From Imbricaverruca yamaguchii (taxonomy: Eukaryota; Arthropoda; Thecostraca; Neoverrucidae), in contig JAOTOL010001437.1 of the NCBI GenBank assembly GCA_034440575.1, forward strand, positions 176,501 through 240,500: a stretch of DNA of 64,000 bases. Reading direction: 5' to 3'. The notes below the pieces were generated by a model, which saw only the letters and a list, made by a program, of their open reading frames with translations, made no database searches and was not told the origin of the DNA. This document shows, one piece after another, positions 14,701 through 64,000 of this stretch. A program made the position numbers and the translations under genes. Within the stretch, counting starts at the first letter, position 1, and the number at the start of each line of letters is the position of its first letter.

Positions 14701-17700
14701 ACTGAAATAATGGTTTTTCGTTAAGTTGAGATGTTAACATAAGTACCGTAGGATGTCGAAATTCGCCATTGAATTCGCCACGGAAACGATATTGTCTGGC
14801 CAGCAGGAGTCGCCGTCAGCAGAGGCTGGCGGGTGTCCGGATAAGATGGCGTCGCCTGCTGCGGGAGCGGTCAGAGAGCAGCGCACCACCCGTGGCACTG
14901 GCCGGCGCGGCGACACCCATCCGCTCCAGCCCATCGTAGCCACAGGTAGCGCGTCCGCATGAGTAGACCAGCCACAGGTAGCGCGTCCGCACGAGTAGAC
15001 CAGCCACAGGTAGCGCGTCCGCAGGAGTAGACCAGCCACAGGTAGCGCGTCCGCAGGAGTAGACTAGCCACAGGTAGTGCGTCCGCAGGAGTAGACTAGC
15101 CACAGGTAGTGCGTCCACAGGAGTAGAATTGCCACAGGAAGCGCGTCCGCACGAGTAGACCAGCCACAGGTAGCGCGTCCACCCTGTAGAGTAGTATGGC
15201 CACAGGTAGCGCGTCCGCAGGAGTAGACCAGCCACAGGTAGCGCGTCCACAGGAGTAGACTAGCCACAGGTAGTGCGTCCACAGGAGTAGAATTGCCATA
15301 GGTAGCGCGTCCACTGGAGGAGAATAGACACAGGTAGCGCGTCCGCACGAGTAGAATAGACACAGGTAGCGCATCAACAGGAGTAGAATAGACACAGGTA
15401 GCGCGTCCACAAGAGTAGAATAGCCACAGGTCATCCATCCTGTGGAGTAGCATAGCCGCAGGTAGCACATCCACCCTGTAGAGTAGCATGGCCACAGGTA
15501 GCGCATCCGCTCTATGGAGTAGCATAGCTATAGGTAGCGCGTCCACCCTGTGGAGCAGCATAGACACAGGCAACACATCTACTATGTGGATGATTATAGC
15601 CACAGGAAACACGCCTGCTCTATGGGACGCCTCTAGCCACAGGTAAGACACCCACTCTGTCCTATCGGCCACAGGGAGCACATCTGGTGTTTTGTTCAGG
15701 GTCTCTCAGGGCCCTACTGTGTCCGTGGTCGTGGCTGTTCTCCGAGTGAGACTGTTGACAGGCGTTGTCCGGTGTGGTGGTGTTGACGGGTGAGCTGGCT
15801 GGTGAGACTGTTGACAGGCGGTGCCCGGTGTGGGTGGTGTTGACGGGTGAGCTGGCCGGTGTGGTAGTGTTGTCGGGTGTGCCCTACTGTGTCGGTGGTC
15901 GTGGCTGTTCTTCGAGTGAGACTGTTGACAGGCGGTGCCCGGTGTGGTGGTGTTGACGGGTGAGCTGGCCGGTGAGACTGTTGACAGGCGGTGTCCAGTG
16001 TGGTGGTGTTGACGGGTGAGCTGGCCGGTGAGACTGTTGACAGGCGGTGTCCAGTGTGGTGGTGTTGGCGGGTGAGCTGGCCGGTGAGACAGCGTGACTC
16101 GGCTGACAGGTGTACGCCGCACCCGTAACTGTTCGCCACTGCCGCTGTACACCGACCAGTGGGAGGGCGAGCGGCCGCACAAGTACGCCACCGGTCCGTT
16201 CCGATCGCCCCGGCCGCGGCGCGCCATCCAACTGCCGCCCAGACCGCGCAGATACAACGTCGAGTTCACCGAGATCGAGGGTGGGTGACTAGCTGTGGCC
16301 AGTGAGTGGGGCGGGCGCTTGATGTCACTCTAGATCGCGATGGTAGGTGGCATATGGAAGGGTGTCAGTCTAGGTCGCGAGGGTAGGCGGCTTTTGTGAG
16401 GGTGTCACTCTAGGTGGAGGGTAGGTGGGATATGAGAAGGTGTTGGCGAGGTCGAGGGTAGGTGGCACATGAGAGGGTGGGGGCGAGGCTGAGACTCAGG
16501 TGTCACTCTAAGTCGAGGGTAGCTGGTGTATGACAGGCGTTGGTAAGTTTTGGACCACGCGTTGCTTGTGCCTTGCGACGATGGACATCGACCACAGCTA
16601 ACCGCTTGAGAGCATGGCGTAGCCAGCGAGCAGCTAGTTAGACCTGTCGCTCGCATGCCGTCGATCATGATTCGTCTGGCTTCCGACTTGGCATTGCGAT
16701 CTGTATGCAATTAGATAGTGCTGGCCGTTCCGAATGATGTGTAGCACGGAACAAGGGGGTGGTGTAGGGCACATTTATATATTTTTTTATATAAAAAATC
16801 CGAGTTGTTGTTGGGGTGGCTTGAGGAGCCAGGGTTCTATTGCTAAGCAGAGCTTGTTGCGTGAACCCTGACCCCACCACCCGACCCAATGAACTCCAGC
16901 TCAACGGCAGAATTTAGACCGAAAGTTTAACTTGCCGCCAATACACCGACACGGCCGCCCGGTAGCTCGTCCCCAGCCTTATCGGGCCAGCTGCCAACTG
17001 ACACTCCCGGCCGGGGGCTAAATGCGAGCGCGCGAAGCGACTCGAACCCTGTGTTGCCGGTACAGGGGAGACCAGTGCAGGCCAGCGCTCTAACCAACTG
17101 AGCTACCGGGGCGGCAAATTTGATACATTGTACATGGCTGATCGAGGCGCCTTTAAGCAACGAACCAACCCAGGTGTGGGAGAAGTTTTTGTCACTCGTG
17201 TGTACTTTACAGAGGAGCGGCGCAACTAGGCTGTGACGTGACGTGAAACCAATGCATAATGGGAACAAACGTCTACCCATTGGCATGATGTATCACTGTC
17301 ATCAGAAGTTTGGCGTCCACCTGTCCGTCCTCTTGTCTGTCCACTTGTCTGTCCACACTACCATAACGCGCCACGCCTTCCCCAGTGCGTCGCAGCGGCC
17401 GCAAGCGGAAGATGATGTACGACAACTTCAGCGACACGTGGATCACCACGCAGATCGCTCACTCGAGGCTGCGCGACGGCCGCGGCGCCGAGGAGGCCGA
17501 GTCGAGTTTGCCGGCCAAGTCGTCTGCGTCTCCGTCGCCGTCTCCGTCGCCGTCTCCGCCGCCGTCTCCGCCGCCGACGGAGGCGCCGGGCGAACGTTCG
17601 CCGCCGGCGGCCGGGACACCGGTCCGGCAGCGCCGCTCGTCCACCCGCCGCATCCTGCTGCCGCCTCTCGAGGACGACGTACGTGTCGGCCGGCGCGCCG

Positions 17701-20700
17701 CAGCTCGGTCGGTGGCGCGCTCAACCCCGATCGTGGGATCTCTGGTTGGGACCCTGCGACCGGCAAGATTACCGAGCTCACCCGTGACGGCACCGCGGGA
17801 TCACTGAGTCCATCCGCGACACCCCCACTGGGTTACCGAGTCCAGCCGCGACACCTCCACTTGGTTACTGAGTCAACCTACGACACTACGGCGGGATTAC
17901 CGAGTCCAGCCGCGACACCTCCACTGGGTTACTGAGTCCACCTACGACACTACGGCGGGATTACTGAGTCCATCCGCGACACCTTCACTGGGTTACTGAG
18001 TCCACCTGAGACACTACGGCGGGATTAGAGTCCATCTGCGACACCTCCACTGGGTTACTGAGTCCACCTGCGACACTAGGGCGGGATTACTAAGTCCACA
18101 CACGACGCCTCCGCGAGATTGCCGTGTCCACCCGCGACATACCTACGTGAGACGTATTCGACGTCGATTGGTCTAGCAGATGGCCTAATGTTCGAATGTT
18201 TCATAAATGAACCCAGGACTCTCCCTCGACGCACGTGCCAGCGCGCAATTGGCGGTGTGGTTGCCGGCGCCCAGTTGGGCAGCCTTCTTGAATTATAGTT
18301 TCAGCAATGTACGTGGATTATGCCACTTGATACCGCGTACTGAATGTTTAGCTCCTGGAAGCCATAGGTAGTGCATTCGCTGGTTGTCCCAATCAGCCAT
18401 CAATGGGCGCAAAGTGACCCTTGATGTCGACGCGCCCCTAAACTCCAATCTACCACCACCGCCAATCAGCCATCAATTCATTAGTTGGTCGACTGAATTG
18501 TTCGTCGTGTGTGTTGCACCAGTTGCTGGTGGTGTGGGGGAGCTATATATGTAAGCTGTGTGTGTTGCTGTACCAGTTGCTGGTGGTGTGGGTGGTGGTG
18601 GTGTGTGGGGAGCTATATATGTGAGCTGTGTGTGTTGCTGAACCAGTTGCTGGTGGTGTGGGTGCTGGTGGTGTGTGGGGAGCTATATATGTGAGCTGTG
18701 TGTGTGTGTGTTGCTGTACCAGTTGCTGGTGGTGTGGGTGGTAGTGGTGTGTGGGAGCTATATATGTGAGCTGTGTGTGCGTTGCTGTGTCAGTTGCCAG
18801 TGCTGGAGGAGGGGCTGTGTGCCCAGCTGTGACCGCCGCCGCTCGTCGCCAGGGTATGGACATGTACTCGCGCGTCAAGCGGATCCACCGGCCGGCGCAG
18901 CGGTTCGGCTGCGCCTCGGCGTCGGCGGTCGAACAGTCGCGCCGGCCGGCCGCCGTGCGCGGCTTCGTGCTGGCCGACTCATCCAGCGGCGACGCCACCT
19001 CCTCCGACGAGGACGAGCCCAGCTGCGCCGACCAGCCCAACGACGAGCCGTGCCAGCGCGAGCCAGCTGAGCGGCTCAGCTCGGCCACGCGCAGCATGGC
19101 AAAGTCGCCGCGCGCCGACTCCAAAGTCATCAAGAAGTACTACCTGCGCGAAAAGCGGAGTATGCCGACATTCTACCAGGGTGAGTAGGTGCGGGAGTCT
19201 TCACCGGGCGCGGCATTTAATCATGTTTGTTTTGTTTATACCAGCTGTGATAGTTTGTTCCAGTTGGCTACAGCCGCGTTAAGCTGCCCAAGATATTGGT
19301 GTTATGTGGTGAAATCCATTTTTTTCAGGTCATTCAGATTTGTAACGAAAGGAAATGATCTGTTGAACATGGCTATCGAATGGCTAGATTATTATCTGTC
19401 ATGCTATTGCAGTCACACCCGGCGTCATCTGTTCTGAAAACTGGCAAGCTGTGACTAGTGCCCTTAAAGATAGTGTGATTTGTATAACTTGTGCAAGTAG
19501 ATATGTACAACGCTCGTACTCGCCAGAAAAGAACATTAAAAACTGGACAAGTCCTAAAAAGAGACCAAGGTAATCCAAAAACATACCATTGGTCAAAAGT
19601 AATATCTTGTGACTGGCTTAAACCGTTGTTTTGTTACCGATGAAGTCAGCACAGTGACATAGACCTTCCAATTTGTCTGAGGACAAGTTCGACTCTGCAT
19701 GCCTTGCACGATATGACGAATCGGTCTGGGCGAGCTCGGAGTTCCTGGGAGGTGAGGTGTCCGGTTGGCTCGGCGGTTCTGGCGCCGCCGGGCAAGGGCG
19801 GGTTCAATCCTGGGGTCGGGCAGTTTGTTGACGTGGAGCGTCGCTGCGTCAGATGAGTCGCTGCTGTCAGCGGCGGCCGAGCCCGGGCTGTCTGCCGAGC
19901 CGTTCCCGGGCCACCGCTGGCACCGCTGCCACCGACGTCGCCAGAACGCCGCCTTCAACGGCAGCACCACGGACAGCAGCAGCGGCCGCGACAGCGGCGA
20001 CGACCGCTTCGAGCGGCGCAAGGCCCGCAGCATGCAGGGCTTCAGGAACAAGTAAGTGGTCGAGACAGGCCGCTCGAGTAGGACGTGCGTCCTGCTGCAC
20101 TGGAGGTGTACCTGGAGCACGTGTCTGAACCAGGGCGGCGGGGCTGCTGCGGCTCTGCTTCCCTTGATGCGGCAAGGATCGCATCCCCCTAAGGAAACAC
20201 AATCAATAGTTAACATGCATTGTGTATGGAACATACGAATGCTTGCTAGTATCATAGAATACCTTAACACGACTTCTAGTAGACCAAAACGGTTCCAAAC
20301 GTTCGTCAGTTGTGTTGCAAGTGCATACTTGGTTGCATGTTGGGTATTTGACGTGCAAGTTTTGATCAGGGTTGCTTGGTGTGGTTGGGATGATCAATGG
20401 ACAGGCTATTAACCCACTCTGTCATTCCGGTCAGATCCTCACTCCCCTTTTCGAGGGTTGGGGGTCATTATATCCGCGTCTAATCTCCAAACTAAGCTAC
20501 GCTCGAGAACGAGAGGTGTCACCGGAAAGCACTCGACGAGTAGGGCCAAAAACCACCCCAAAATGTTCCCCTTACAATAGCGGCGTCACTGTGAGTAGTG
20601 GGTTATGAGATCACAATTTGCATCGTGTTTTTTACTTTCGGAAGTCCATGTTGGGGACGATTTTAAAAAGAAGACTTATTTGGAATCGGAAGGCGAAGGA

Positions 20701-23700
20701 GAAATGGAGCACGGTCCCCGAAAAATATTTGCCCACCCAGAAAATAGACATATTTCGCCTCCCAAATTTTGAGTTTTCGATTTTATAATTGACAGACTTT
20801 ATTGAGGTCATCCACAATTGACTTGTGGCTATTACGACATCGCGTCAAATAGATAAAACAACACAGCACAAAAGGTAAAAAGGAGGGTCAAAATAACAGA
20901 ATACAAGTTAAACTAAAAAAAATATATATATATAAAATAACAGCAAGTCGAGCAGTCTATCACTCCGGCGCGGGCGGCACGTCACGTAGATACTCCCGTA
21001 GATCACGTAGATAATTGTGTTGTAATGGGTAGAGCGCACTGAGAAACGTCGTTTTAAGTAAACATGGCCTCATACAAAATGCTTGCACTGGCGATAATCT
21101 TTCATTTTTTAAAACCTATTAGGGAAATTTTCAGCACAAAGAAGTCATGAAATCTGAAACTTTCAAAAAGCCTTTGACACGTTCTGTTGCTTATTTAAAA
21201 GTAACTAAACGATGAAAGTTTCATTCAAATATATTTGCCATCTAAAGCGTCACGGCTGGCTGAACATTTTGGAAATGACCTATCTTAGTCGTGACCAGCT
21301 TGGTCACCGCTGATGGCCTGACCTGGTTATCACGGCTGTTCTGCTGATTTGGTCGCTGTTGTGAGATCCAAACGGTCCTGCAAGGAAGATATACCTTCTG
21401 ATTTTGGGGTGGCGTTTTATCTTCGCTATGGTGGAAGCTAAATCTTCCCGGTGGTACACATATGATTGTTGCAAATCTTCTCATGACTGTGTCTCCGTCT
21501 CGCACGAGTTGTCCCAGCCAGACTAGAATATGCCACGTTTTACGTTTGGTCCATCGTTGCGAATGGGTGAGGTATCTAGACCCTGGGAGGGACAACAATG
21601 ATGACACCAGAAAAAGCTGGCATGTGTTAGAAGAAAACTATGTGCGTGTGTAGACGTCATCAGAACCCCCGGAGAAGGGTGTCGGTAGCTTAGTAATTAA
21701 GCTGAGCGGCTGGCATATCGGAGGTGCAGGGTTCGATCCCCCGCGGTGCCCACCGCCCTTCCTTCCAGGGTGAGGGGCAATCGACGCTGCTGAATGCACC
21801 GTAAAGAGTCACAACCACCAGAGCCATCAGAGATGGTCCACGGGACAGTTGAGGGGAGCACTAGAGGAGCCGAGTACCCAGGGATTACCATCCAACTATC
21901 AGATATGGCCAGAGTGATTTTTAGAACAGTTGGGGGAGGGGCACTAGAGAAGCCGAGTGCTAAGGGATTACTATCCAACTATCAGAGATGATGAGAGTGG
22001 TCCTTGGAACTGTGTTGGGGACCACTAGGACAGTGTCCTAAAATTACTTTACCATTAACTGTGTGAATGAAGAAAGAAGTTGCTTGGGAGTAGTGAAAGA
22101 TTGGAAGAAAATAAAGGATCTCCACTTAAGGATTAAAAAACAGAATGCTGTTGTAATACACATTTTTCACTTCAGTCACATGCATTTTACATTATTTAGC
22201 TGTCGTGTGTATAATGACTACCCACACATCATGTGGCAAATTGGTAAAAACCTAAGACAAGGATGAAATAGCACAATTCCATTAACTGTGAATTTCCAGG
22301 CCACATTGTCAATTATTTTACACCACACTAGAGGAGCCGAGTACTCAGGGATTACCCCGGAGGTCCGAGTTGATATGAGACAAACCTTGCAGATTAGCGA
22401 TATGCTTCAATGCAAGAAGCTGGGCACAATAAGTGTAGTCGTGGGGTTGAAGTTTTTCATATTTGTTGACATTAAACAGACTCATTGTTGAGCCTTTTCC
22501 GTGATTGAGTGTTCGTTATTTCCACTTGGGAATCCGGCGCCGTGTGTGTCGGCGGCGGCACATCTGCTGTGTGTACGTGCCCGTGCCGAGTCGGTCTGCA
22601 GCGGCTGGTGTGTTGATGGTCTGACGGAGCCGTGGTCGTGTTGCCGGTCTGACAGAGCCGTCGTCGTGTTGGCGGTCTGACAGAGCCGTGGTCGTGTTGG
22701 CGGTCTGACAGAGCCGTGATCGTGTTGCGGTCTGACGAGCCGTGGTGGCGGTCTGAAGAGCCGTGGTCGTGTTGGTCTGAGGAGCCGTGATCGTGTTGGC
22801 GGTCTGACAGAGCCGTGGTCGTGTTGGCGGTCTGACAGAGCCGTGATCGTGTTGGCGGCCTGACGGAGCCGTGCTCGTGTCGGCGGTCTGACGGAGCCGT
22901 GGTCGTGTTGCCGGTCTGACGGAGCCGTGGTCGTGTTGCCGGTCTGACGGAGCCGTGCTCATGTCGCCGCCAGATGTCTTCCGATGAACTTCACCAAGGC
23001 GGACGCCACTCAGCGTGCTGTGCCCCGGCAGCGCGTGGGTACCAGCCTTGCTGACGTGGACCCCATGTCCGTCGACAAGTAAGTGCCGTGCTGTCCAACG
23101 GGGCCGCGCCAATAGCCATGCACCAACGAGTATCGCGCTGTCCAACAGAGCCGTGTCCGTGGACAGGCGAGTGCAACATGGCTGATAATTTCTGCCACCA
23201 AGCCGGATTTTACAGGTTTCATAGGTTTTTACTGGTAGGGGTCCTGCAGATACTTTATTTAATCTTCCTCAGGTATATAAGACAAGGTGTATAATACGCA
23301 AAGTTGGAACTGAAAATGTTACAGGAAGTGTAAGCATATTTTTATTTTTCTCTTCGCAATTTTTGAACCGGTTTTGCCGGTAAGCTTCGTTCTCATGACA
23401 ACTAGCTTTCCCAGTAAAAACTTCCACCCAGGAATGTAAACATAAAAAGTATAGAGCACAGATATTGAGACCGTGGCGGTGTTATCACGTAATGTACGGG
23501 TGAATGTTGTGGCCATGATGCGGTGCCACTGGTGATAACCGCACAAAACTAGCTCGTCACCAATGTCACCAGTTGGTGGTGCGGTGCCGCTGCCGATGAC
23601 CGCACCAAACTTAGCTCGTGCACGTCCCGAGCCCACTAGTTGGTGGTGCGATGCCGCTGCCGATGACTGCACCAAACGTAGCTCGTGCACGTCCCGAACC

Positions 23701-26700
23701 CGCCAACTGGTGGTGCAGTGGCGATTCGGCGACATTGTGGACGTGAGCCTGAACTGTTTTGTGCTGCTGCATTGACACCGATCTTGCCTACATTGTGCTC
23801 CGTCACGCTGGTCATGGTGCTGATAGCCTAGCTGGAGCCTGAGCCATGCCGGGCTGGTACTTAGACTTCGTATTGGACTCGGTCGTGCCGGTGCCGGATG
23901 GTCGTCGTCTCACACCTCCGTAACTGCAAAGAGCGGTCAGCGTGGTCGTCCCGTACCTCCGTTACTGCAGAGAGCCGTCAGCGTGGTCGAACCACGGGCT
24001 GTCCGCGCCGTCTGTGGACGTGACGTCAAGCTGTGATAGCTGGTAAACTTGTGCCTTTCGCATGAATGTTTATGATTTCCATGGCGGGCATGGGCACTAC
24101 GAACTGTAGAAAGGTCAGTTATGTAGCTGTGTGCTGAAAGAGCAGCACTTGCTTTGTTGTAGGATGTAGTTAGCTGTGAGTGCTGGTAGTGAGGAGTACC
24201 ACACGTTTCCCAGGCGACACGGTGTCGAGGCCCAGACCGCAGGTAGCATACAGGGGAGCGGGGGCAGGCGATCGTAACGGTGCGGTCGTGCCGCCAGGGA
24301 TGTCAACTTCGACATGATCGGCGGTCTTCGGGATCACATCCGCGATCTGAAGGAGATGATCTTGCTGCCGTTGCTCTACCCGGAGGTGTTCAGCAGCAAG
24401 AACATAACACCTCCCAAGGGTGTGCTGTTCTGCGGACCCCCTGGTAGGCTATTGTGCCACTGTTTGCAGAGTTGAGAAGAACCCTGGCTCTTTTACGGGG
24501 TGTTTGACTGCCGGGCGACATAGCGTCGGCAACCTCTCACGCCGATTGGTCGCGGGTAGACTATTGTCGTGGGTTGCAGAGTGTATGTGGTTGTATTATG
24601 TATGCATTTGCCTATCCGTCTGGGAAGAAAGAAGGTTTGCACACGATAGCATAGCACGTGTTCAAGTTCAGTGTTCTTGATGCATCCTGTGCACTAGTGT
24701 GCTGTTTGAACAATCATGACCATAATGCCATCCCCAATGGAAGGTCTGATCTTAGTGGCCCTGCTGAACCTAGCTTGAGTTAGCACAGCCTGACCAGCTT
24801 AATATCACCCGTTTTTCAAAACCCAGCATAAAACTGATTGATAGCTGTTATGCCACTGTGCTCTACCCTGCTCTGCTTTATTATCTCATGTTTTGCTTTG
24901 CCGTGTTCCATCCCATTCTACTTTGGCCTGCTATGGCTTGGTGTACTCGGTTGCACCCTGCTCTGTTCTGCTCCGTCCTGTTCTGTCTTTCTGCTCTGCC
25001 CAACCCCATCCTGATCTGCTTTATTGTGTGCTGACTGTTCTGCTATCCTCTTCCATGTAGTGTGCTGTTCTGCACTTCTTTTGATGTGCCTTGTTCTGTC
25101 ATATCATGTGCTGTTCTATCCCGCGTTGCCCTGTTCTGCCATGCCATGTACTGGTCTGGGCGCTGCATGACCGATGTAGTCGATGCGCCCCTAAACTCCA
25201 ATAACCGGGGACGAGTAGCCTGAGGGTAAGCTGCTCGTCTCGCAATCGAAAGGTTGTTGGTTCGAATCTCACCTGCCGCTACTCTTCGCCCGCGACCAAT
25301 CGGCGTGAGAGATTGGCGACGCTGCATGACTCAACTGTCCATGTGTCGTAAAACCAATAACCAACCAAACTCCAATAACCAACCAACCAACCATGTACTG
25401 GTCTACCTTGTTGCACCGTGATCTGTCATGTCGAGTACTGTTCTACCATAATGTGCCCTGTCGTTTGCTGCTCTACCCTGGTGTGGCCTGTCGTGGGCTG
25501 TTGTACCCTGATATGGTCTGTTGTGTGCAGTTCTACCCTGTTATGCAGTGTCGTGTGTTGCTCTACCCGGCCGTGGCCTGTTATGCAGTGTCGTGTGCTG
25601 CTCTACCCGGCCGTGTCCTGTTGTGCAGTGTCGTGTGTTGCTCTACCCGGCCCTGGCCTGTTGTGCAGTGTCGTGTGTTGCTCTACCCGGCCGTGGCCCG
25701 TTTTGCAGTGTCGTGTGTTGCTCTACCCGGCCGTGGCCTGTTGTGCAGTGCCCTGGCGCCGTCTGACCCAGACTGTCTCCCAGGCACGGGGAAGACGCTG
25801 ATGGCACGGGCCCTTGCCAACGAGTGCAACCTGGGTGACCGTAAGGTGGCGTTCTTCATGCGCAAGGGTGCCGACGTGTTAAGCAAGTGGGTGGGCGAGA
25901 GCGAGCGCCAGCTGCGACTGCTATTCGACCAGGTGAACACTTCCCCGACATCCGAGTTGAAAACACCAGCATTGCAGATAGTGGAGTATAGCATAACGGT
26001 GATTGTAGTGTGGAACACTCGAATCATCCAGTTGGTTGTTGGTCACAACAACCAACTGGATCACAACATTACTACACTCACCTTGCTTTCGAATAGCATC
26101 CGTGCTGAACTAGAAGTTTGTGTTTCGGTGCCAGTTCTTTTATGTGAACGAATGCATTCCAAATCGATTGAACCCGAAATAATTGTTAAATTGTTCCCAT
26201 CATCCATTTTTATAGACAGCACTTGGATGCCATCGAGCTATGCATGTCTAATGGTGCTTGTATGCCAATGATTAGTCGTGTTGAAGGTCGTTTTTCCGTT
26301 CAGGCGTACCAAATGCGGCCATCCATTATCTTCTTCGACGAGGTGGACGGCCTGGCGCCGGTACGCTCTTCCAAGCAGGACTACATCCATTCCTCCATCG
26401 TGTCCACCCTGCTGGCGCTGATGGACGGCGTCGACAGCCGTGGAGAGGTCAGTCCGAGGTCACCAGACAACACCAGACCAGTCAGATGTCACCAGACGCC
26501 ACCAGACTAGTCCGAGGTCACCAGACCTCATCAGACTAGTCAAAGGTCACCAGACGACACCAGACCAGCCAGAGATCGTCGGGCGCCACCAGACTAGTTT
26601 GCTGCGGGGCGTGCGGCGCAGGCAACCTTCCATCACACACTACATTTTCCTTCTATTGACTTCTGTCGCACTATCTCGTTATTCTGCTGTCAGGGATCGC

Positions 26701-31326: not shown

Positions 31327-31359
<33 letters not shown>

Positions 31360-34300: not shown

Positions 34301-37300
34301 ACTGGAGAACGTGCGCGTGTTCACCTTCAACGCGTTCGCTCTGCACGCGACCGGCACCGAGCCGCTGCAGGCGCTAGCCCAGGTGAGGCGTGGGGCGCAT
34401 CAGCGCGCCCTTGGGTCGCCGCCCTCAGCGTCAGATGGGGCGCGTGTCGAGCTGTAGCTGCTCCCGCACTAGAGAGTAGGCGGCGCGCCAGCTGACAGAG
34501 AGGATGCCGGTGGCAGTTGGTGACCCGCCGTGCTGACTCACCCGTCTGACCGGTGTCCGTGTGTGACCGGTGTCCGTGTCTGACCGGTGTCCGTGTCTGA
34601 CTGGTGTCCGTGTGTGACCGGTGTCCGTGTCTGACCGGTGTCCGTGTGTGGGCAGCTGCTGTCGGAGGCGGCGCGCAGTGTGCCGGCCGTGGTGTACCTG
34701 CCCCGGTTGGACAGTCTGTGGGTGTACCTGGCGGAGCGACTGGGCCTGCGGGAGCCCCTGCTCAACCTGCTGGACGACTTGCCGCGACGCTCGCCTCTGC
34801 TGCTGCTCGCCACCTGCAACCTGGCCGGTGACGACGGTCTGCCGCCGGAGGTCAGTGTCGGCCGCCGGAGGTCAGTGTCGGCCGCCGGAGGTCAGTGTCT
34901 GCCGCCGGAGGTCAGTGTCGGCCGCCGGAGGTCAGTGTCGGCCGCCGGAGGTCGTGTCGGCCGCCGAGGTCATGTCGGCCGCCGGAGTATGTGGCCGCCG
35001 GAGGTCTTGGCCGCCGAGTGTCGGCCGCCGGAGGTGTGTCGGCCGCCGGAGGTCGTGTCGGCCGCCGGAGGTCAGTGTCGGCCGCCGGAGGTCAGTGTCG
35101 GCCGCCGGAGGTCAGTGTCGGCCGCTGGAGGTCAGTGTCTGCCACCGGAGGTCATTGTCGGCCGCCGGAGGTCAGTGTCGGCCGCCGGAGGTCAGTGTCG
35201 GCCGCCGGAGGTCAGTGTCGGCCGCCGGAGGTCAGTGTCGGCCGCCGGAGGTCAGTGTCGGCCGCCGGAGGTCAGTGTCGGCCGCCGGAGGTCAGTGTCG
35301 GCCGCCGGAGGTCAGTGTCGGCCGCCGGAGGTCGTTGTCGGCCGCCGGAGGTCAGTGTCGGCCGCCGGAGGTCAGTGTCTGCCACCGGAGGTCAGTGTCG
35401 GCCGCCGGAGGTCAGTGTCGGCCGCCGGAGGTCAGTGTCGGCCGCCGGAGGTCAGTGTCTGCCACCGAAGGTCAGTGTCGGCCACCGGAGGTCAGTGTCG
35501 GCCGCCGGAGGTCAGTGTCGGCCGCCGGAGGTCAGTGTCGGCCGCCGGAGGTCAGTGTCGGCCGCCGGAGGTCAGTGTCGGCCGCTGGAGGTCAGTGTCG
35601 GCCGCTGGAGGTCGTTGTCAAGTCATGGCGTCGACAGTCGGAGAGCAGTCCTGATCAGTACCGTGTCGACAATCAGAGGTCATTGTGGGGTCATGGTATC
35701 AGAGTAAGAGGTGCATGCCTTGGGGCTTGCCTTCGGCAGTCAGGCCACTGTCTAAGCATGGTGGGAACAGTTGAAGGAGTAGGAAGAAAATGGGCACCAC
35801 AGCTGCTCTCGTTGAGTTCGCGCTAATATAATTAAGTTACAGATTGCATTGAGGTAACCTTAATTATGTTGGGAACAAAGTGAAAAATGATGCGTGGAAA
35901 AGGTTGTAAAAACGTATGTCTACCGCTGGTATAATCCGTGACTTGCAGTAGGAAGTTTTCTGAGCCTATGCATGTTTTATCACGATTGCGTGTGGAATAC
36001 AACACAAAATATTTTGGTTAACTTGCAAAAAGTGGGCCCAGATTACATGTACGCATGTCAGTGTCCTAAAGTTACTTTCACGTTAATGTGTGGAGAAGAA
36101 GTTGCTTGGGAATAGTGAAGATTGGAAGAAAATAAAGGATTGCAATACAAGGATTAAAAAGGGAATCCTTAAAAATTTATAGCACAAAATATTTTGGTTA
36201 ACTTGCAAAAAGTGGGCCCAGATGAAATACCACAAGTCCATTAACTGTACATTTATTTAATTTTTTACATGTACGCATGTAACACCGTAATTGCCTCCTG
36301 AGTTTCTACTGACCAAAGGCAGGTTTTGTTAACTGTCTCTGTACACCTCAGGTGGCCAATCTGTTCAGTGCAGCGCGTGGTCAGATTCACCTGGTGAACG
36401 ACCCCAAAGCCAAGGAGCGACACAAGCTATTCACGCGGCTCTTCCTGAAAACTGCCATCCTGCTCAAGAAGCGAAAGCAGAAGGAAGGTGAGCGCGGTGT
36501 TCTCGGAGTCGGCCTGGATTGGTGTTGTTTGCCGCTTGGTGTTTAACTTAGTGAGCTTGGATACAGATATGGGACCCCATTGCTCATACTTATAATTTGG
36601 TTTGGCAATGACTGGCACCACATCGCTTATTACCCACTAGTCGAGGAGGAGCTCCCCGTGTCCCCGCCGTATGGTGACCGTGGTGGTATGGTGGTCCGGT
36701 GTGACCCTCTATGATTCGGTGTGACCCGTTGTGGTCCGGTGTGACCCGCTATGGTCCGGTGTGACCCGCTGTGGTCTGGTGTGACCCGCTGTGGTCCGGT
36801 GTGACCAGTTGTGGTCCGGTGACTCCCGCTTTGGTCCGGTGTGACCCGCTGTGGTCCGGTGTGACCCGCTGTGGTCCGGTGTGACCCGCTATGGTCCGGT
36901 GTGACCCGCTGTGGTCCGGTGTGACCCGCTGTGGTCCGGTGTGACCCGCTGTGGTCCGGTGTGACCCGCTGTGGTCCGGTGTGACCCGCTGTGGTCCGGT
37001 GTGACCCGCTGTGGTCCGGTGTGACCCGCTGTGGTCCGGTTGGCAGTGGAGGAGGAGCTGCCTGTGGCGCCACCGCCGCCGCCTCGCCAGCTGAGTGAGG
37101 CGGAGCTGCGCAAAACGCACCGGCGCGAGGAGAGGCGGCTGGCCGAGCTGCGCATCTTCCTGCGCGAGATGTGTGGCAGACTCATACGGAACCGACAGTA
37201 AGTAGCCGACACTGTGTGTGTCGTAAAGCCACAGTCCAACCAATCCAATCGACCCAATCATTTGAACTTTTAACATGGGACCTTTTAGAGCTTACCCTGG

Positions 37301-40300
37301 CCTCTCTCCTCAATCCATTTGGGTCCACCCACTGCCTTCATGAATTATGCTCCCCCCCCCCATAATTTTCCTTAAGTAGTCAATGCACCTGCCTTATGCG
37401 ATATGGTGCATTTGGCAGGTGCTGACCCTTCTGAAGTGTAGCGAAATGACCAATTCAGTCGATGTGCCCTAAAGCCCCCTCACCCATCCCCTCCTGAAGT
37501 GTGCTGTTGCCCTGATCAGTCTGCTGTATTGCTGTTGTCATTGAGGGGCGCGGATGGCCGAATGGTTAAGGTGTTGAACTCTGGGTACCACAGGTCCCGG
37601 GTTGAACACTCACACCACTCGGGACATTTCCCAATCCGCGGCCCACCGACGAAAAAGTGTGGGCGGCGCCGTTAGCCGTGATCGTGTAAAAAGTGCGTCG
37701 AAAACCACCCAATAAGCAAACAAGCAGTAGTCGTCGACCTGTATCTGCTCTATTGGTCTGCTGTTGTATGACAGTAACTGTAGCGCCGTTGTTGTTGACT
37801 GGTGTTGTGTCCGTGTTGGCCCGGTACTGACTGGGCCGGGTGCGCCAGGTTTGAGCTGTTCCGACAGCCGGTGGATGAGGAGGACGCCCCAGACTACTAC
37901 AGTATTATCGAGCGGCCCATGGACCTGGACACCATCATGACACGCATCGACCAGCACAGGTCGGTCCGGTGGCAGCCATTGGTGTCAGCGTGGGCACAAC
38001 TACCGCACGCATCTCCACGGTTGGGTTTGCAGTTGGCAATCCTGGATTTGGAGAGTGCAATTGGCTGACCTTCGAATGCCAGGGAATGGGCGCTAAATGA
38101 CCTAGTAGTCGGCACGCCCTTAAACCCAAATAACCAATCAATCGAATGCCAGGGAGATATTCGCAACTTTCTTATCTGCTTCCGGGCAGGTACATAATTT
38201 GGACTTTTAATGCAAGAAGAATCAGGAGTAATGAATTGAAGATAAAAATTTATTTGACACCGTGGGGCACAGCCGCTGTTTTCTTTGATAACCAGATAGT
38301 GTGCATTCATATAGTCTGACAGCATCATTCATCTTTCCAGTGGGAAAAGGGAGAGCCCAACTTTCTGGACGAAATTATGTTCTTCATGACGGAAATCCAG
38401 GCTCTTTTCCAACTCTGGACATGTCACCTACCTACCAAATCTCGATGTGAAAAAGTTTGCCAAAAGCGAAAGTTCAGGGAAAAGTAGGTGCATCTCAAGT
38501 CATATATTTTCCTTTGTACGTACATATTTCCTCATTGTACGCTATAAGTTCAAGCCTGGCGATTAAGGTAGTATATGCAGTTTGCTAACCTGTAACCCTT
38601 GTAGTTTCAGGACATCAGTAGGTATGCACATGCGCTTGCGTGTAAGCATGCTAGTATATGGACGCATGTATGCATGCATGCATGTATGTATGCGTGATTC
38701 TTTGGTTGTCTATTAATATATAATATGACACCATGTTTTAATTTTGATGGCTCATCTTTGTATATGATGTCCAACTAAAGGTGAATCTGAACACTACGTA
38801 CGGTAGTCAGTGTGGTCACTGATCAGCATACCCCAGGTCGTTGACCGGTGCAGATCACGCTGCTGGAGAGCGTAGAGCAGACGTCTAACTTTCGTAGGTC
38901 AAGCAGATTTCCCGTCAACCCAAACTGTCGTCGGGAAGAGTGGGTTAGGCCATGCGGCTTTAGTGCTGGTGTCTGAAGAGTCCTGTCCTGCAGGTACGAG
39001 GCAGCGGAAGACTTTCTGGCAGACGTCGACCAGATATGCACCAACGCGCTCGAGTACAATCCCGACACCACCGAGATGGGCCGCGAGATCCGCCACCGCG
39101 CCTGCATGATGCGGGACCAGGTAATGCGTCGGCCCTGCTCCGTACTGCGGGACCAGGTAATGTGCTGCTGCTGCTGCTGCTCCGTACTGCGGGACCAGGT
39201 AATGTGCCGCCGCTGCTGCTGCTCCATACTGCGGGACCAGGTAATGTGCCACCGCTGCTGCTGCTCCGTACTGCGGGACCAGGTAATGTGCCGCCGCTGC
39301 TGCTGCTCCGTACTGCCTGACCAGGTAATGTGCTGCTGCTGCTCCATACTGCGGGACCAGGTAATGTGCCGCCGCTGCTGCTGCTCCGTACTGCGCGGCC
39401 AGGTAATGTGCCGCCGCTGCTGCTGCTCCATACTGCGGGACCAGGTAATGTGCCGCCGCCTCAACCAGTAATTGCTGCTGCTGCTCCATACTGCGGGACC
39501 AGGTAATGTGCCGCCGCTGCTGCTGCTCCGTACTGCGGGACCAGGTAATGTGCCGCCGCTGCTGCTGCTCCGTACTGCGCGGCCAGGTAATGTGCCGCCG
39601 CTGCTGCTGCTCCATACTGCGGGACCAGGTAATGTGCCCCCGCTGCTGCTGCTCCGTACTGCGGGACCAGGTAATGTGCCGCCGCTGCTGCTGCTCCATA
39701 CTGCGGGACCAGGTAATGTGCCGCCGCTGCTGCTGCTCCGTACTGCGGGACCAGGTAATGTGCCGCCGCTGCTGCTGCTCCATACTGCGCGGACCAGGTA
39801 ATGTGCCGCCGCTGCTGCTGCTCCGTACTGCGGGACCAGGTAATGTGCCGCCGCTGCTGCTGCTCCGTACTGCCGGACCAGGTAATGTGCTGCTGCTGCT
39901 CCATACTGCGGGACCAGGTAATGTGCCGCCGCTGCTGCTGCTCCATACTGCGGGACCAGGTAATGTGCCGCCGCTGCTGCTGCTCCATACTGCGGGACCA
40001 GGTAATGTGCCACCGCTGCTGCTGCTCCATACTGCGGGACCAGGTGATGTGCCGCCGCTGCTGCTGCTCCATACTGCGGGACCAGGTAATGTGCCACCGC
40101 TGCTGCTGCTCAATACTGCCGGACCAGGTAATCATAATTTAATTAGCAGATTGTTTTTTTTAATGCTCATCCAGGAATTCAAACTAAATTGCCTTTTTGT
40201 TCCTCGATTGCATGCAATTGTGCTGAATTTTCATTCGATCCCGTCCGCCGGGAAGTGACAGCCATGTCGTAGCGACCGGCCGTGATCCTATAATCCCATA

Positions 40301-43300
40301 GGACGAAGTGGTATACGTGTGTTCCGTTAGTATTTGATATCCTTGTCATACTGCAGTTTGTGATTTTTCAATGAAGGATGTTTGGGCAGACTGCAGGAAG
40401 GAAGGATTAGTTGCTAGGGGTATTTATTGAGCTTTTCACTGACAGAACCACATAATGTCAAAAAGTGGATTTCCAAGTTCACACGTAACTCCAGATCAGT
40501 GGCCATAAGTTGACTGAACCCCTGCATTGTCAGTGTCCATTGTGGTTCTGTGGCCTCAAATTGACAGAACACCTAGATTGGCATGGCCCCTTGGTTCTAT
40601 GCAGTGGCAACGGCACATCGTATGGCCAGGGGAGGGGTAACATTCACCTCTGTCCCATTGTTCACCATGCAACCCTGGAGTGGTCAGCAGAGTACCTCCG
40701 TGCCCTGTTGTGCCGACACGGCTGGCTGCTCTGGAGTGGTCTGGTCTGGCACCCTCCGTACCCCGTTGTGCCGACACGGCTGGCTGGTCTGCCAACCTCC
40801 GTACCCCGTTGTGTCGACAGTGTCACAAGCTGATCGACGAGCAGATGGACTCTGACTTTGAGGAGGAGTGCAGGGCGATCCGTCAGAGTCGAATGGAGCG
40901 TGCTGAGTCGCCGTCCAAGTTCGCGCCGCGCTACCTCATCACACCGCGTTCGTACTTGCAGCAGATGGGTGAGTCGCTCTCCCAAACAAGGATGGCGTTG
41001 TGTCTACGGAAGGTGTTATCGCCGCAATAGCCGCAATACTACATTGTGCTGTCATACTGCTGAATAATTGCCTGCCAATGATGCGTGTTGTCCAGACGAT
41101 GTCGGTGATAAGCCGGTGTTGTAACGACTTTAACCAGGGCGGTCCTCAACTTTGGGCGGACGGTACTCGGCTCGGGTCGGACGATAGCTGCCAACTTTTC
41201 AGCAAAGACGATACTTTGGTGTTTGGCGAGTGATTCGCCGGCCTCGAGCCGCCTGCTGTAGCGGTTGTGTGGTGTGCGGACTGCGCTGTGCGCCGGCTGA
41301 CCTGTCGCGGCGGTGCAGCATCCCAGGGCGGTTCGTCAGGCGCGCCAGCTGACGACGCTGCGGACGGCTCAGCCGCCCGCCCGCCATCCGAGCCGACCTC
41401 GCCCGGCCGCCGGAAGCAGGGCCGCCGCCACACTCGCTGGTCACGCGGCGTGGTGGCCAACGGCCGGCGGCGCGCCAGCCGCCTCGACACCGACCGACAG
41501 CAGCAGCAGCAGCAGCAGCTGAGCGGCGAGCTGGACCTCGCCTGCCCCGCGCAGCACGTCGCACACGCCAAGCAGGTGGCCAAGCCGGCGCCGCCCGACG
41601 AGGACAGCGGCCACGGCTCCACCACGGCGCCCGGCAGCGACGAGCAGCTGGCAAGTGTGGCCGCCGGGGTCCAGGTGAGCGCCCGCCACAGATGATCATT
41701 CTCAATTGGGGGATTCGGATGATGAGTCGAGAGAGTGGCTACGATATCTACCTCAATGGATGGAGACATAACCTGCCAACATGGCATCACTACGTTGGTA
41801 GGTTGTGTGATCTCGCAGGCTATGTTGGCATGGCTTAATGGGACCTCGCTGGGGCAACTGCCGATTCCAATCACAGCAGATAAAATGTGACACCAACAGT
41901 ATTAAAGCATTGGTTTTTCGTTTGGTGTGATATGTCGAATTGAGTACAGAAGGATGTGTAAATTTCTCACGGAAGCATGTTTATAATGTTTTAGTCCTTG
42001 AAGTAAGTTTGTGAACCAAAAGTGTACACATATGCGATGTTTTTATTTGAGGGACGTCTATTATAAGAGTACATAGTATTGATAATGATGGCAAATACCA
42101 TCAACAAATGATTTACTAGCATCACACCGTAGGACTATTGTGTTTGGTTGGTTGGTCATTGGTTTTTACGACACGTCGACCGTTGAGTCATGTGGCGTCG
42201 CCAATCTCTCACGCCTATTGGTCGCGGGCGAAGAGTAGCGACAGGTGAGCCTCGAACCCACAACCTTTCGATTGTGAGACGAGCAACTTACCCCTAGGCT
42301 ACTCGTTCCCGGACTATTGTGTTTGTGCATCTGTATATTAGCTATGCATCTGGCATTATCCTGAATTGCAACAAGATCCTTGTGCATCACAATCTGTATT
42401 GGGAAGCATAAACATAATGCCTATGCACAACAGTTTTTTTAGAAGCGATGCATGGTTACTTGATAAACATGTCAAGAAGCACGGTGTCGGCACTTATTGG
42501 GGAAGGATGTCTAGTGGGTGTTCAGAAAGTGGTACACCCTACTATATTTCACCAATAATTTATCACTGGGTACCAACCACGCATAATTGTGGTTGCTCGA
42601 CCCATTCTGACTTAGAACTTGATGCTCACCCAGCCCCAAAGTATAAGCACTTATGTATGTTCCTCAGCAATTAACGATAAATAGGTCGGTGTCGACTGCT
42701 GCTGCTGTGTGAGCTGGTACAGTGTCATCTGGTGCTGCTGTGTGAGCTGGCTCAGTGGCTGCCGCTGTTGCTGAGTGAGCTGGTTCTGTGTCATCTGCTT
42801 CTGCTGTCTGAGCTGGTTCTGTGTCATCTGCTGCTGCTGTGTGAGCTGGTTCTGTGTCATCTGCTGTGGCTGTGTGAGCTGGTTCAGTGTCATCTGTGTG
42901 AGCTGGTTCTGTGTCATCTGCTGCTGCTGTGTGAGCTGGTTCAGTGGCTGCCGCTGTTGCTGAGTGAGCTGGTTCTGTGTCATCTGCTGCTGCTGTCTGA
43001 GCTGGTTCTGTGTCATCTGCTGCTGCTGTGTGAGCTGGTTCAGTGTCAGATGCATGAGCTGGTGCAGTGTCGGCTGTGTGACTCGCAGGTGGACCATGGC
43101 CGGCTGCTGCTGCTGTGTGAGCTGGTTCTGTGTCATCTGCTGCTGCTGTGTGAGCTGGTTCTGTGTCATCTGATGCTGCTGTGTGAGCTGGTTCAGTGTC
43201 GGCTTTGTGACTCGCAGGTGGACCCTGGCGGCTGCTACTGCTGTGTGAGATGGTTCAGTGTCATCTGTGACTCGCAGGTGGACCATAGCCGGCTGCTGCT

Positions 43301-46300
43301 GCTGTGTGAGCTGGTTCAGTGGCGGCTGTATGGACCGTGGCCGGCTGCTGCTGCTGTTCAGTGTCATATGTGACCGTGGCCGGCTGCTGCTGCTGTGTGA
43401 GCTGGTTCAGTGGCGGCTGTGTGTGACTCGCAGGTGGACCGCGGCCGGCTGCTGCTGCTGTGTGAGCTGGTTCAGTGTCATCTGTGACCCGCAGGTGGAC
43501 CGTGGCCGGCTGCTGCTGCTGTGTGAGCTGGTTCAGTGGCGGCTGTGTGTGACTCGCAGGTGGACCGTGGCCGGCTGCTGCTGCTGTGTGAGCTGGTTCA
43601 GTGTCATCTGTGACCCGCAGGTGGACCGTGGCCGGCTGCTGCTGCTGTGTGAGCTGGTTCAGTGTCATCTGTGACCCGCAGGTGGACCGTGGCCGGCTGC
43701 TGCTGCTGTGTGAGTTGGTTCAGTGTCATATGTGACCCGCAGGTGGGCCGTGGCCGGCTGCTGCTGCTGTGTGAGCTGGTTCAGTGTCATCTGTGACTCG
43801 CAGGTGGACCGTGGCCGGCTGCTGCTGCTGTGTGAGCTGGTTCAGTGTCATCTGTGACCCTCAGGTGGACCGTGGCCGGCTGCTGCTGCTGTGTGAGCTG
43901 GTTCAGTGGCGGCTGTATGGACCGTGGCCGGCTGCTGCTGCTGTGTGAGCTGGTTCAGTGTCATCTGTGACCCGCAGGTGGACCGTGGCCGGCTGCTGCT
44001 GCTGTGTGAGCTGGTTCAGTGGCGGCTGTGTGTGACCCGCAGGTGGACCGTGGCCGGCTGCTGCTGCTGTGTGAGCTGGTTCAGTGTCATCTGTGACCCG
44101 CAGGTGGACCGTGGCCGGCTGCTGCTGCTGTGAGCTGGTTCAGTGGCGGCTGTGTGTGACTCGCAGGTGGACCGTGGCCGGCTGCTGCTGCTGTGTGAGC
44201 TGGTTCAGTGGCGGCTGTGTGTGACTCGCAGGTGGACCGTGGCCGGCTGCTGCTGCTGTGTGAGCTGGTTCAGTGCCATCTGTGACCCGCAGGTGGACCG
44301 TGGCCGGCTGCTGCTGCTGTGTGAGCTGGTTCAGTGTCATCTGTGACCCGCAGGTGGACCGTGGCCGGCTGCTGCTGCTGTGTGAGCGGGTTCAATGTCA
44401 TCTGTGACCCGCAGGTGGACCGTGGCCGGCTGCTGCTGCTGTGTGAGCTGGTTCAATGTCATCTGTGACCCGCAGGTGGACCGTGGCCGGCTGCTGCTGC
44501 TGTGTGAGCTGGTTCAGTGTCATCTGTGACCCGCAGGTGGACCGTGGCCGGCTGCTGCTGCTGTGTGAGCTGGTTCAGTGGCGGCTGTGTGTGACTCGCA
44601 GGTGGACCGTGGCCGGCTGCTGCTGCTGTGTGAGCTGGTTCAGTGGCGGCTGTGTGTGACTCGCAGGTGGACCGTGGCCGGCTGCTGCTGCTGTGTGAGC
44701 TGGTTCAGTGTCATCTGTGACCCGCAGGTGGACCGTGGCCGGCTGCTGCTGCTGTGTGAGCTGGTTCAATGTCATCTGTGACCCGCAGGTGGACCGTGGC
44801 CGGCTGCTGCTGCTGTGTGAGCTGGTTCAGTGTCATATGTGACCCGCAGGTGGACCGTGGCCGGCTGCTGCTGCTGTGTGAGCTGGTTCAGTGTCATATG
44901 TGACCCGCAGGTGGGCCGTGGCCGGCTGCTGCTGCTGTGTGAGCTGGTTCAGTGTCATCTGTGACTCGCAGGTGGACCGTGGCCGGCTGCTGCTGCTGTG
45001 TGAGCTGGTTCAGTGTCATCTGTGACCCTCAGGTGGACCGTGGCCGGCTGCTGCTGCTGTGTGAGCTGGTTCAGTGGCGGCTGTATGGACCGTGGCCGGC
45101 TGCTGCTGCTGTGTGAGCTGGTTCAGTGTCATCTGTGACCCGCAGGTGGACCGTGGCCGGCTGCTGCTGCTGTGTGAGCTGGTTCAGTGGCGGCTGTGTG
45201 TGACCCGCAGGTGGACCGTGGCCGGCTGCTGCTGCTGTGTGAGCTGGTTCAGTGTCATCTGTGACCCGCAGGTGGACCGTGGCCGGCTGCTGCTGCTGTG
45301 TGAGCTGGTTCAGTGTCATCTGTGACCCGCAGGTGGACCGTGGCCGGCTGCTGCTGCTGTGTGAGCGGGTTCAATGTCATCTGTGACCCGCAGGTGGACC
45401 GTGGCCGGCTGCTGCTGCTGTGTGAGCTGGTTCAATGTCATCTGTGGCCCGCAGGTGGACCGTGGCCGGCTGCTGCTGCTGTGTGAGCTGGTTCAGTGTC
45501 ATCTGTGACCCGCAGGTGGACCGTGGCCGGCTGCTGCTGCTGTGTGAGCGGGCCGTGAAGCTGACGGCCGGCTGGAGCGTGGCCGAGCTGGAGGAGCTGC
45601 ACGACCGGCTGGTCGCCGTTGTTCGCCGCTACCACTACCGACGACAACGCAATGACATGCTCAAGGTGACGATGGTGGCAGGCAGGTGTCGGCACGTCCA
45701 GGCTGGCCACTTCTGCGGCCTCCCGTTAGGAACAGGTTTAGAAGAACGTTCTCCATGCATATTTTAGTGTAAAATGGTGTACTTCACAGTGTTGGAATGA
45801 TGTTATTCTTTTTGTTAGGTGAGAGATGTTGAAACGAGCACAGTGGGATATCGAAATTTGCTACGGAAGCGTGCTGTTGACAATGTCGCTTCAGTCCTAC
45901 AACTTCAATTTTGGGCCAATAGTGTACTCATGGGTGCATGCTTTTCATTTAATTTTGGGGACATCTACTTTAGGGATGCCTTTGCTAACTGTAACGACTA
46001 CAATACCATGGCACCAGCAGATGACATTGGTCAAGAAACAACATTATAGATAGTATTTACATCTGTACTTGTATTATATCACAATTTGTAATGGTGTGCA
46101 TAATGAGGATTTTAGGCACTAAATGTATTTATAAACGAAACGTAGATATTTCATAAATACATCAAGGAGCAGAATGTCGCTACTTCATTGGAAATGATGA
46201 TGCTTCGGTGTTCAGGAAGTGGTACCTTCCATCCTGTTTCACCAATAATTTCTCACTGGCACTTCATCACCACTAAGCGTTATGTCCATCAACAGCTATC

Positions 46301-48320: not shown

Positions 48321-48484
48321 GGGGGGACGAGTAGTCTAGGGATGAGTTGCTTGTCTCAATCGAAAGATTGTGGGTTCGAATCTGACCTGTCGCTACTCTT
48401 CACCCGCGACCAATCAGCGTAAGAGATTGGCGACGCTACATGACTCAACGGTCGATGTGTCGTAAAGCCAACAACCAACCAACT
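48321..48484 (+). mobile_element. tRNA-derived SINE (family S1)
   Basis: Head GGGACGAGTAGTCTAGGGAT, B box GTGGGTTCGAATCTG, tail GTGTCGTAAAGCCAACAACC. Perfect ATGAATGTGGGGGG duplications lie at 48307-48320 and 48485-48498. Confidence 0.92.
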
Positions 48485-63660: not shown

Positions 63661-63669
63661 TTAGCAACC

Positions 63670-63965
63670 ATGCCTGGATACTGCTTGGTACCGGGATGTA
63701 GGCCATCAACGAAACGAGTTTCATACCATTCTCTGCCAAGAAACCAGGAAATGGCCAGGCACTGGCTGGAAATGTGTGGACGGAAGGATCTGATTGGCGG
63801 TAAACTAACAAGTAGTGTTAAGATATGTTCTGCACATTTCCATAAAACTGACTTCAAAAGTCACTATCAGTACACTCTCATGAAATCTGGGAAGACTGGG
63901 GCAAGACCTCGTTTAAAGGATGATGCAGTGCCAACATTTGTTACCCTTGGGTGGAAGAAAATCAG
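63670..63965 (+). CDS. THAP-type zinc finger protein, first exon (gene continues past the window)
   Basis: ATG at 63670 codes MPGYCLVPGCRPSTKRVSYH. The C2CH zinc site is C5-x4-C10 with C53-x2-H56 in KICSAHF, W32 is conserved, and DDAVPTFVTL carries the AVPT signature of the THAP fold. The exon ends AATCAG|GTGAGT in phase 2. THAP proteins bind DNA as host factors or as P-element-type transposases; the window ends before that can be decided. Confidence 0.9.
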
Positions 63966-64000
63966 GTGAGTTTGCCCAATAGTCAGGCCATTCTCTGTCA

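Follow-up and report, generated by a model that had tools for sequence, protein, structure and literature searches.

Why should several splice junctions of a single barnacle gene lie inside tandem repeats whose units copy the junction itself, and which of the resulting near-identical splice sites is used? The question is raised by an ATAD2-like gene (14753..47012, forward strand) in a 64,000-nucleotide stretch of the genome of Imbricaverruca yamaguchii (contig JAOTOL010001437.1), referred to below in its entirety as the window. The splice-site arrays of this gene are real and of a known kind, and are striking for their recurrence within one gene; with a probability of roughly 0.7, they are minisatellites of the type called 'mirages' in lancelets, where tandem duplications of exon-intron boundaries with AG/GT in many copies, and regular splicing, are reported in PMC3087553.

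The gene consists of 22 coding exons giving a spliced product of 1,268 amino acids (the start codon being uncertain), with an uninterrupted reading frame and GT and AG borders at 21 of 21 introns. Exon numbers refer to coding exons and are one lower than in a preliminary description of this DNA (its exons 2, 12, 15, 19 and 22 are exons 1, 11, 14, 18 and 21 here). Residues 420-1268 were 78% identical to the ATAD2-like protein P0121 of Amphibalanus amphitrite (1,272 amino acids), and full-length comparison with the same protein gave 873 identical residues out of 1,211 aligned. Exon joins were mostly supported by alignment with two barnacles and two decapods, joins 1/2 and 19/20 being the poorly conserved ones; the Pollicipes model P0131 (741 amino acids) lacks several exons of the gene.

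Splice junctions inside tandem arrays

Five of the 42 splice junctions were located by Tandem Repeats Finder (TRF) inside tandem arrays with units that copy the junction:

14937..15606, forward strand: exon 1 donor array, 32-bp unit (some 36 bp); last exon base 14945
29805..30774, forward strand: exon 11 donor array, compound 58-bp unit (24 + 34 bp); last exon base 29817
34837..35613, forward strand: exon 14 donor array, 20-bp unit; last exon base 34850; TRF score 1302
39109..40132, forward strand: exon 18 donor array, 42-bp unit; last exon base 39120
42689..45549, forward strand: exon 21 acceptor array, 61-bp main unit with 33-bp sub-units in the 5' part; first exon base 45516

TRF scores were 676 (14937-15546) and 192 (15413-15606) for the exon 1 array, 524 and 1162 (period 42) and 1584 (period 126) for the exon 18 array, and 3536 (43372-45549) for the exon 21 array. 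The TRF core of the exon 18 array starts at 39135, and the authentic donor there is a diverged first copy, with 12 exon bases within the array coordinates. The five arrays had been named in the preliminary description, and TRF placed them where it had put them, each unit holding a true splice junction of the gene model. AG immediately before GT (AG/GT, the slash marking the junction) was intact in 128 of 136 copies over the five arrays, counting the authentic sites and excluding 18 further matches in the exon 11 array, which represent the 24-bp sub-unit and carry ATTA. The motif was present in 18 of 22 copies at exon 1 (18 of 25 in a looser search excluding the authentic site), in 12 of 15 copies of the 34-bp sub-unit at exon 11 (AGAT in the other three), and in 37 of 38, 25 of 25 and 36 of 36 copies at exons 14, 18 and 21, respectively. 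The earlier statement that every unit has AG directly before GT thus applies to the unit consensus, where it follows from the donor consensus itself, but not to single copies, some of which have lost the motif. Block duplication in addition to unit turnover is indicated by long exact repeats, of 417 bp at a distance of 1,168 bp in the exon 21 array and of 156 bp at a distance of 256 bp in the exon 11 array.

Similarity of repeat units to junctions

A scan for near copies of the 24-mer around each of the 42 junctions (20 or more of the 24 positions matching, no further than 1,500 bp away) was positive at these five junctions only, with 7, 14, 31 and 12 near copies for the donors of exons 1, 11, 14 and 18, respectively, and 23 for the acceptor of exon 21. 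All arrays with a TRF score of at least 100 (of 82 TRF rows, 38 were taken over and the 35 of these that reached this score were used, the remaining rows of such score being read as the same arrays at other periods) were then considered, 17 in total, and each TRF unit was aligned to its nearest junction and to 20 other junctions of the same type. With 15 nt on each side, the own junction ranked first of 21 for all five straddling arrays (own scores 36-60, best other 20-30). Weaker signs were seen at two further donors, and spaced copies at one acceptor:

16323..16488, forward strand: weak exon 2 donor array, 37-40 bp unit; last exon base 16280
26450..26598, forward strand: weak exon 9 donor array, 29-bp unit; last exon base 26447; TRF score 166
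40703..40820, forward strand: exon 19 acceptor region, three spaced copies with AG in the last copy only; under the array threshold and outside the 17

For the exon 2 donor array, the own junction was first of 21 with 15 nt (24 versus 20) and tied first with 12 nt; the sequence TCGAGGGTRGGTG matches at 16275 (the exon 2 junction) and 16452, with one-mismatch matches at 16415 and 16513. For the exon 9 donor array, it was first of 21 with 15 nt (22 versus 20) but not with 12 nt (16 versus 20). The exon 16 array showed no preference for its own junction (18 versus 26), as was the case for 10 of the 17 units altogether. For the 12 non-straddling arrays, 15 nt gave a mean rank of 0.377 (P 0.07), 12 nt one of 0.469 (P 0.36) and 20 nt of exon alone one of 0.652 (P 0.97), and the corresponding P values for all 17 arrays were 0.0003, 0.007 and 0.31 (0.0097 with 30 nt of exon). 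A wider segment (20 nt of exon, 40 nt of intron) gave P 0.0002 for the 12 arrays, but overlaps the arrays themselves.

Junction-derived arrays are accordingly five strong and two weak ones, with ten lacking such a sign, in a comparison that had been proposed for the whole genome and was run here on this gene alone. Among the weaker cases previously listed at what are here exons 2, 16 and 19 (exons 3, 17 and 20 in the older numbering), the first held up, weakly, and the second did not; at the third the copies of the acceptor region exist, AG being confined to the last one. The weak case at the exon 9 donor was absent from that list. Among arrays within 42 bp of a junction, strong straddlers made up 4 of 6 on the donor side and 1 of 9 on the acceptor side (P 0.089), or 6 of 6 versus 1 of 9 (P 0.0014) when the two weak donors were added, an asymmetry that is a lead only, the grouping having been made after the data were seen.

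Position of the working splice site

The protein is kept when splicing takes place at the copy adjoining the exon, which for the four donors (exons 1, 11, 14 and 18) is the first in the array and for the exon 21 acceptor the last. Relative to A. amphitrite P0121, zero residues were inserted at joins 11/12, 14/15, 18/19 and 20/21. Splicing at any of the 21 later donors of the exon 1 array, or at any of the 35 earlier acceptors of the exon 21 array, would bring in a stop. Judged from protein and reading frame, the exon-proximal copy is the favoured candidate for the working splice site.

Several observations weigh against mirage-type arrays with a single working copy at the exon. Later positions in the exon 11 array (32, many of them GT-less sub-repeats) and the exon 14 array (37) meet no stop, and later exon 18 copies leave the frame open in 8 of 24 cases (stop in 16 of 24). 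The protein region encoded by exon 1 is not conserved among relatives, so that the reading frame alone informs on site choice there. Predicted local RNA structure gave no consistent difference between authentic sites and copies over the five arrays, and the AG/GT columns were somewhat better kept than other unit columns (combined P 0.022). Copies were more open than the authentic site in 25 of 25 cases at exon 1, 0 of 14 at exon 11, 9 of 36 at exon 14, 12 of 23 at exon 18 and 21 of 35 at exon 21, and RNA structure hiding the extra copies was rejected on this inconsistency. Selection on the AG/GT of each copy is not claimed, since the copies were found by AGGT-containing motifs.

The exon 11 (29805-30774) and exon 14 (34837-35613) arrays are open in all three forward frames, so that read-through or later donors would lengthen the protein or shift the frame with no early stop in the array. 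The 330-amino-acid read-through of the exon 11 array had no match at an E value of 0.001 among 7,990 scored candidates in relatives, and the exon 18 fragment had no match among solved structures. The Pollicipes model P0131 has four extra residues (VTVT) exactly at the 18/19 join (39120/40821); either an error in the gene model or a small duplication of the donor in Pollicipes could account for them.

Placement and composition of the arrays

In addition to the seven arrays above, ten others were present in the introns:

15711..16090, forward strand: array on the acceptor side of intron 1; 56-bp unit, 19-bp gap to exon 2
17795..18112, forward strand: intron 3 array, 64-bp unit; 116 bp from the exon 3 donor
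18527..18821, forward strand: array on the acceptor side of intron 3; 70-bp unit, 31-bp gap to exon 4
22592..22964, forward strand: array on the acceptor side of intron 5; 28-bp unit, 9-bp gap to exon 6
23519..23716, forward strand: intron 6 array, the sole mid-intron one, 67-bp unit; 440 bp from the nearest junction
25415..25750, forward strand: array on the acceptor side of intron 7; 30/40-bp unit, 33-bp gap to exon 8
27085..28321, forward strand: array on the acceptor side of intron 9; 35-bp unit, 34-bp gap to exon 10
32925..34199, forward strand: array on the acceptor side of intron 12; 56-bp unit, 11-bp gap to exon 13
34544..34647, forward strand: array on the acceptor side of intron 13; 17-bp unit, 8-bp gap to exon 14
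36691..37040, forward strand: array on the acceptor side of intron 15; 20-bp unit, 6-bp gap to exon 16

Together, the 17 arrays occupy 11,457 of 28,453 bp of intron (about 40%) in 14 of the 21 introns, and a single 86-bp array of score at least 100 was found in the 31 kb outside the gene. In the copy scan, positions with at least two near copies nearby made up 34.9% of intron, 2.2% of exon and 0.1% of sequence outside the gene. The only TRF repeat lying wholly within a coding exon of the gene is a 6/12-bp repeat in exon 3 (17521-17588), which encodes a stretch rich in serine and proline.

Array edges lay within 35 bp of a junction for 14 of the 17 arrays (4.7 expected) and within 50 bp for 15 (5.7 expected), neither value being reached in any of 4,000 simulations; the expectation places founders uniformly in the present unique intron length, and both distance thresholds were chosen with the distances already in view. 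Relative position, tested without a threshold, gave P 5.5e-9 for the 17 arrays and P 2.8e-5 with the five straddlers removed. Straddling arrays numbered 5 against 2.1-2.2 expected (P 0.04-0.05), so that an excess of arrays across the junction itself is borderline; by length of the founder intron, P was 0.02-0.004 at 600-1,000 bp and 0.19 at 300 bp. The fraction of junctions inside arrays (5 of 42) is below the intron average (35%), that is, array edges are enriched at junctions but junctions as points are not.

Composition differed by side of the intron. On the coding strand, AT skew was -0.42 to -0.71 in the nine acceptor-side arrays and -0.24 to 0.46 in the eight donor-side ones (Mann-Whitney P 8e-5); all nine acceptor-side arrays are T-rich and A-poor, and none of the eight donor-side arrays is equally skewed. 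Introns free of arrays had an AT skew of -0.29 at 10-60 nt from their 3' end and of -0.04 at 10-60 nt from their 5' end. AG dinucleotides numbered 0-24 per kb in five acceptor-side arrays and 46-56 in the other four, relative to 25-157 in donor-side arrays. Acceptor-side founders look like pieces of the intron 3' end.

GC content in array-free introns fell from 0.59 beside exons to 0.40-0.42 at 250-400 bp. Of the GC-rich (0.50-0.62 or more) 40-bp non-array intron windows, junction-straddling windows left out, 11-22% lay near junctions (6% of all windows), and GC composition was rejected as the cause of anchoring because this share was at most 22%. A uniformly G-rich coding strand, as a sign of R-loops, was likewise tried, and was unconvincing, GC skew being positive in 11 of 17 arrays.

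Explanations for the arrays

As mirage-type minisatellites, the arrays would have started from a short tandem duplication near one intron end; a duplicated piece crossing the junction would carry AG/GT into every new copy, growth and turnover would proceed by slippage and unequal exchange, and the copy touching the exon would remain the working splice site, leaving the protein unchanged and letting the array behave as intron. The arrays, their junction content, their edge anchoring in present introns, their side-specific composition and the protein-keeping site are direct observations; we infer that the arrays are neutral, that they grow in this way and that the extra copies go unspliced. The position of the founders at exon edges is left to two sub-cases of this reading, and the odds of these therefore overlap with its own.

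The first sub-case, which has slightly less than an even chance, takes the founder introns to have been short (about 100-150 bp), so that, with no special mechanism, duplications would necessarily arise near a junction and some would straddle it, the unique sequence being lengthened later by insertions. With founder introns of 150 bp, 11.0 of 17 arrays would be expected within 35 bp of a junction (P 0.10), along with 5.2 straddlers, and with 100 bp the expected numbers are 14.1 and 6.5, respectively; the 12 non-straddling arrays alone gave P 0.10 at 150 bp and P 0.35 at 100 bp. At 200 bp, however, P was already 0.013. Intron 1 has only 123 bp outside its two arrays, and introns of Daphnia pulex have a median length of 76 nt (PMC3152781, Table 5), which makes short founders possible. 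On the other hand, the seven array-free introns of the gene measure 350-1,317 bp, the nine non-straddling arrays in introns with at least 500 unique bp still lie near the ends (P 0.00016 relative to present lengths), and dispersed repeats were seen in only 8 of 21 introns by self-comparison, which elements single-copy in the window would escape. Short founders would also leave unexplained that there is one small array in the 31 kb outside the gene.

The second sub-case, a tentative one with rather lower chances, holds that, in this lineage, the edges of exons in transcribed genes act as hot spots of minisatellite birth, through a mutational process linked to transcription, splicing or exon-edge chromatin. 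It would account for the surplus of arrays within 35 bp of a junction (14 versus 4.7 expected), for relative positions far from uniform with or without the straddlers, for side-specific composition, and for the share of intron in arrays relative to the single array outside the gene, and GC-rich windows near junctions are too few (11-22%) to replace it. Against it, only a single gene is concerned, founder introns of up to 150 bp explain the pattern away, GC skew gives no uniform R-loop sign, and junctions as points are unenriched relative to intron positions. In its most specific form, slightly more doubtful again, the splice-signal zones at both intron ends would be hot spots in barnacles via a transcription- or splicing-coupled process, with donor-side arrays founded on or beside the donor, acceptor-side arrays founded on the T-rich, A-poor stretch upstream of AG, and introns filling with self-seeded arrays. 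The side-specific composition fits both the hot-spot and the short-intron sub-case. Of the preliminary proposals, non-random placement was supported for the anchoring of edges in present introns and for composition by side, whereas the junction-crossing excess is borderline and ten units show no preference; a mechanism or selection favouring repeats seeded at splice sites would be one reading of that placement, but short founders (up to 150 bp) would give the same picture.

It had also been proposed that the copies are recursive-splicing ratchet points, that is, zero-length exons serving stepwise intron removal, which now appears very improbable. The AG/GT kept in 128 of 136 copies would suit such points, but the juxtaposition is trivial, AG/GT being the ordinary donor consensus. 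With scoring matrices built from the gene's own 21 sites only, copies at exons 14, 18 and 21 scored middling both as acceptor and as donor, and their upstream pyrimidine content (0.53, 0.54 and 0.57, respectively) was close to that of the gene's own acceptors (0.57). As acceptors, however, exon 1 copies had a median score of -1.5, compared to 5.6 for the own acceptors, with an upstream pyrimidine content of 0.37; medians were 2.9 at exon 14 and 4.4 at exon 18, and -3.8 at exon 11, a value that mixes both sub-repeats (pyrimidine content 0.48). Exon 21 copies, being copies of an acceptor, do have a suitable acceptor context; as donors they scored 5.8, compared to 7.6 for the own donors. The introns of the gene, array-bearing ones included, span 273-3,841 nt, whereas for dystrophin PMC4829307 gives an average length of 40 kb for introns removed in several steps (range 650-248,401 bp); the array-bearing introns are far below this average and mostly inside the range. 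Introns of 273-3,841 nt would need no stepwise removal. Given in addition that protein and frame favour the exon-proximal site, the proposal was not supported, ratchet points being unlikely at the exon 1 array and unproven at the others.

Assembly artefacts are the least probable source, since 17 different arrays with unique flanks lie in an intact 22-exon gene and the seven arrays examined have divergent, ordered copy variants, even though one lancelet mirage was aberrantly assembled in a draft genome (PMC3087553): the existence of the arrays is hardly wrong, but copy numbers may be.

Neighbourhood of the gene

Other features of the window were as follows:

59683-60600, reverse strand: XPA, one open frame, downstream of the ATAD2-like gene; identity over 86% of the frame 77% (A. 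amphitrite) and 79% (Pollicipes pollicipes)
57739-58161, reverse strand: histone, one open frame, downstream of the ATAD2-like gene; presumably H2B-like
63634-63969, forward strand: THAP-domain protein, one open frame, downstream of the ATAD2-like gene
6540-7781 (reverse strand) and 50977-51582 (forward strand): reverse transcriptase and RNase H open frames
25205-25368, 42147-42312, 48323-48483 and 8670-8828, both orientations: dispersed element of about 160 bp, 82-90% identity

The reverse transcriptase and RNase H frames are probably retroelement remains, and two copies of the 160-bp element sit in introns of the ATAD2-like gene. No tRNA was found in the window by ARAGORN. Going by the XPA identities, the DNA is most likely that of a thoracican barnacle other than A. 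amphitrite and P. pollicipes. The sequence near the first in-frame ATG (14700-14790) resembles, by eye, a dispersed element in introns 12 (32249-32327) and 20 (41896-41974), the two intronic copies of which match one another by BLAST; given this likeness, the true start may be the later ATG in exon 1.

Relation to known systems

Lancelet mirages have been described at Adh3 and the globins BflGb6 and BflGb9 (PMC3087553), and PGBD5 and TnC were added in PMC3902484. Five of the barnacle arrays resemble them in that the unit contains the boundary. They differ in the host, in the concentration of five strong cases in one gene together with further arrays that mostly lie near an edge without containing the junction, and in that regular splicing, reported in lancelets, would here follow from exon-proximal sites that give the conserved protein. 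Length polymorphism between alleles and somatic instability are further marks of mirages, and the present data cover one haplotype. Cephalochordates are the only group in the mirage reports considered, and the present DNA is of another origin, the XPA frame of the same window being 77% and 79% identical to A. amphitrite and Pollicipes, respectively. The name rests on structure, so a host outside the cephalochordates counters common descent, not kind.

Tandem repeats of exon-intron boundaries in human segmental duplications likewise have minisatellite-sized boundary units and can change splicing, but human transcripts keep the repeats in exons or new introns (both from PMC2812944), whereas the barnacle repeats would be intronic according to the conserved protein. 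Intron gain by AGGT duplication (the Rogers model; 24-bp repeats in fission yeast, and the RNA-dependent RNA polymerase, RdRp, of potato; PMC4974935) shares copies carrying both splice signals, but the barnacle arrays lie at ends of already existing introns. Recursive-splicing ratchets share the juxtaposed AG/GT and differ in that the barnacle copies are tandem, in introns below the reported average, with a poor acceptor context at least at exon 1. The array-rich barnacle gene is the opposite of what PMC3152781 states for Daphnia, in which repeats with units longer than 8 bp are far less frequent in introns than elsewhere. No report of boundary-spanning minisatellites in barnacles or other crustaceans was found among the matches listed, and a term look-up showed the word 'intron' to be absent from the main text of two cirripede genome papers (Capitulum, Sacculina).

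If the pattern proves to be genome-wide, boundary-spanning minisatellites would recur in a distant animal group and be more than a lancelet oddity, and a single gene would serve as a natural experiment on spliceosome choice among dozens of near-identical sites. The growth of introns through repeats that they seed themselves, and the gain of introns through AGGT duplication, would then both become directly testable in barnacles.

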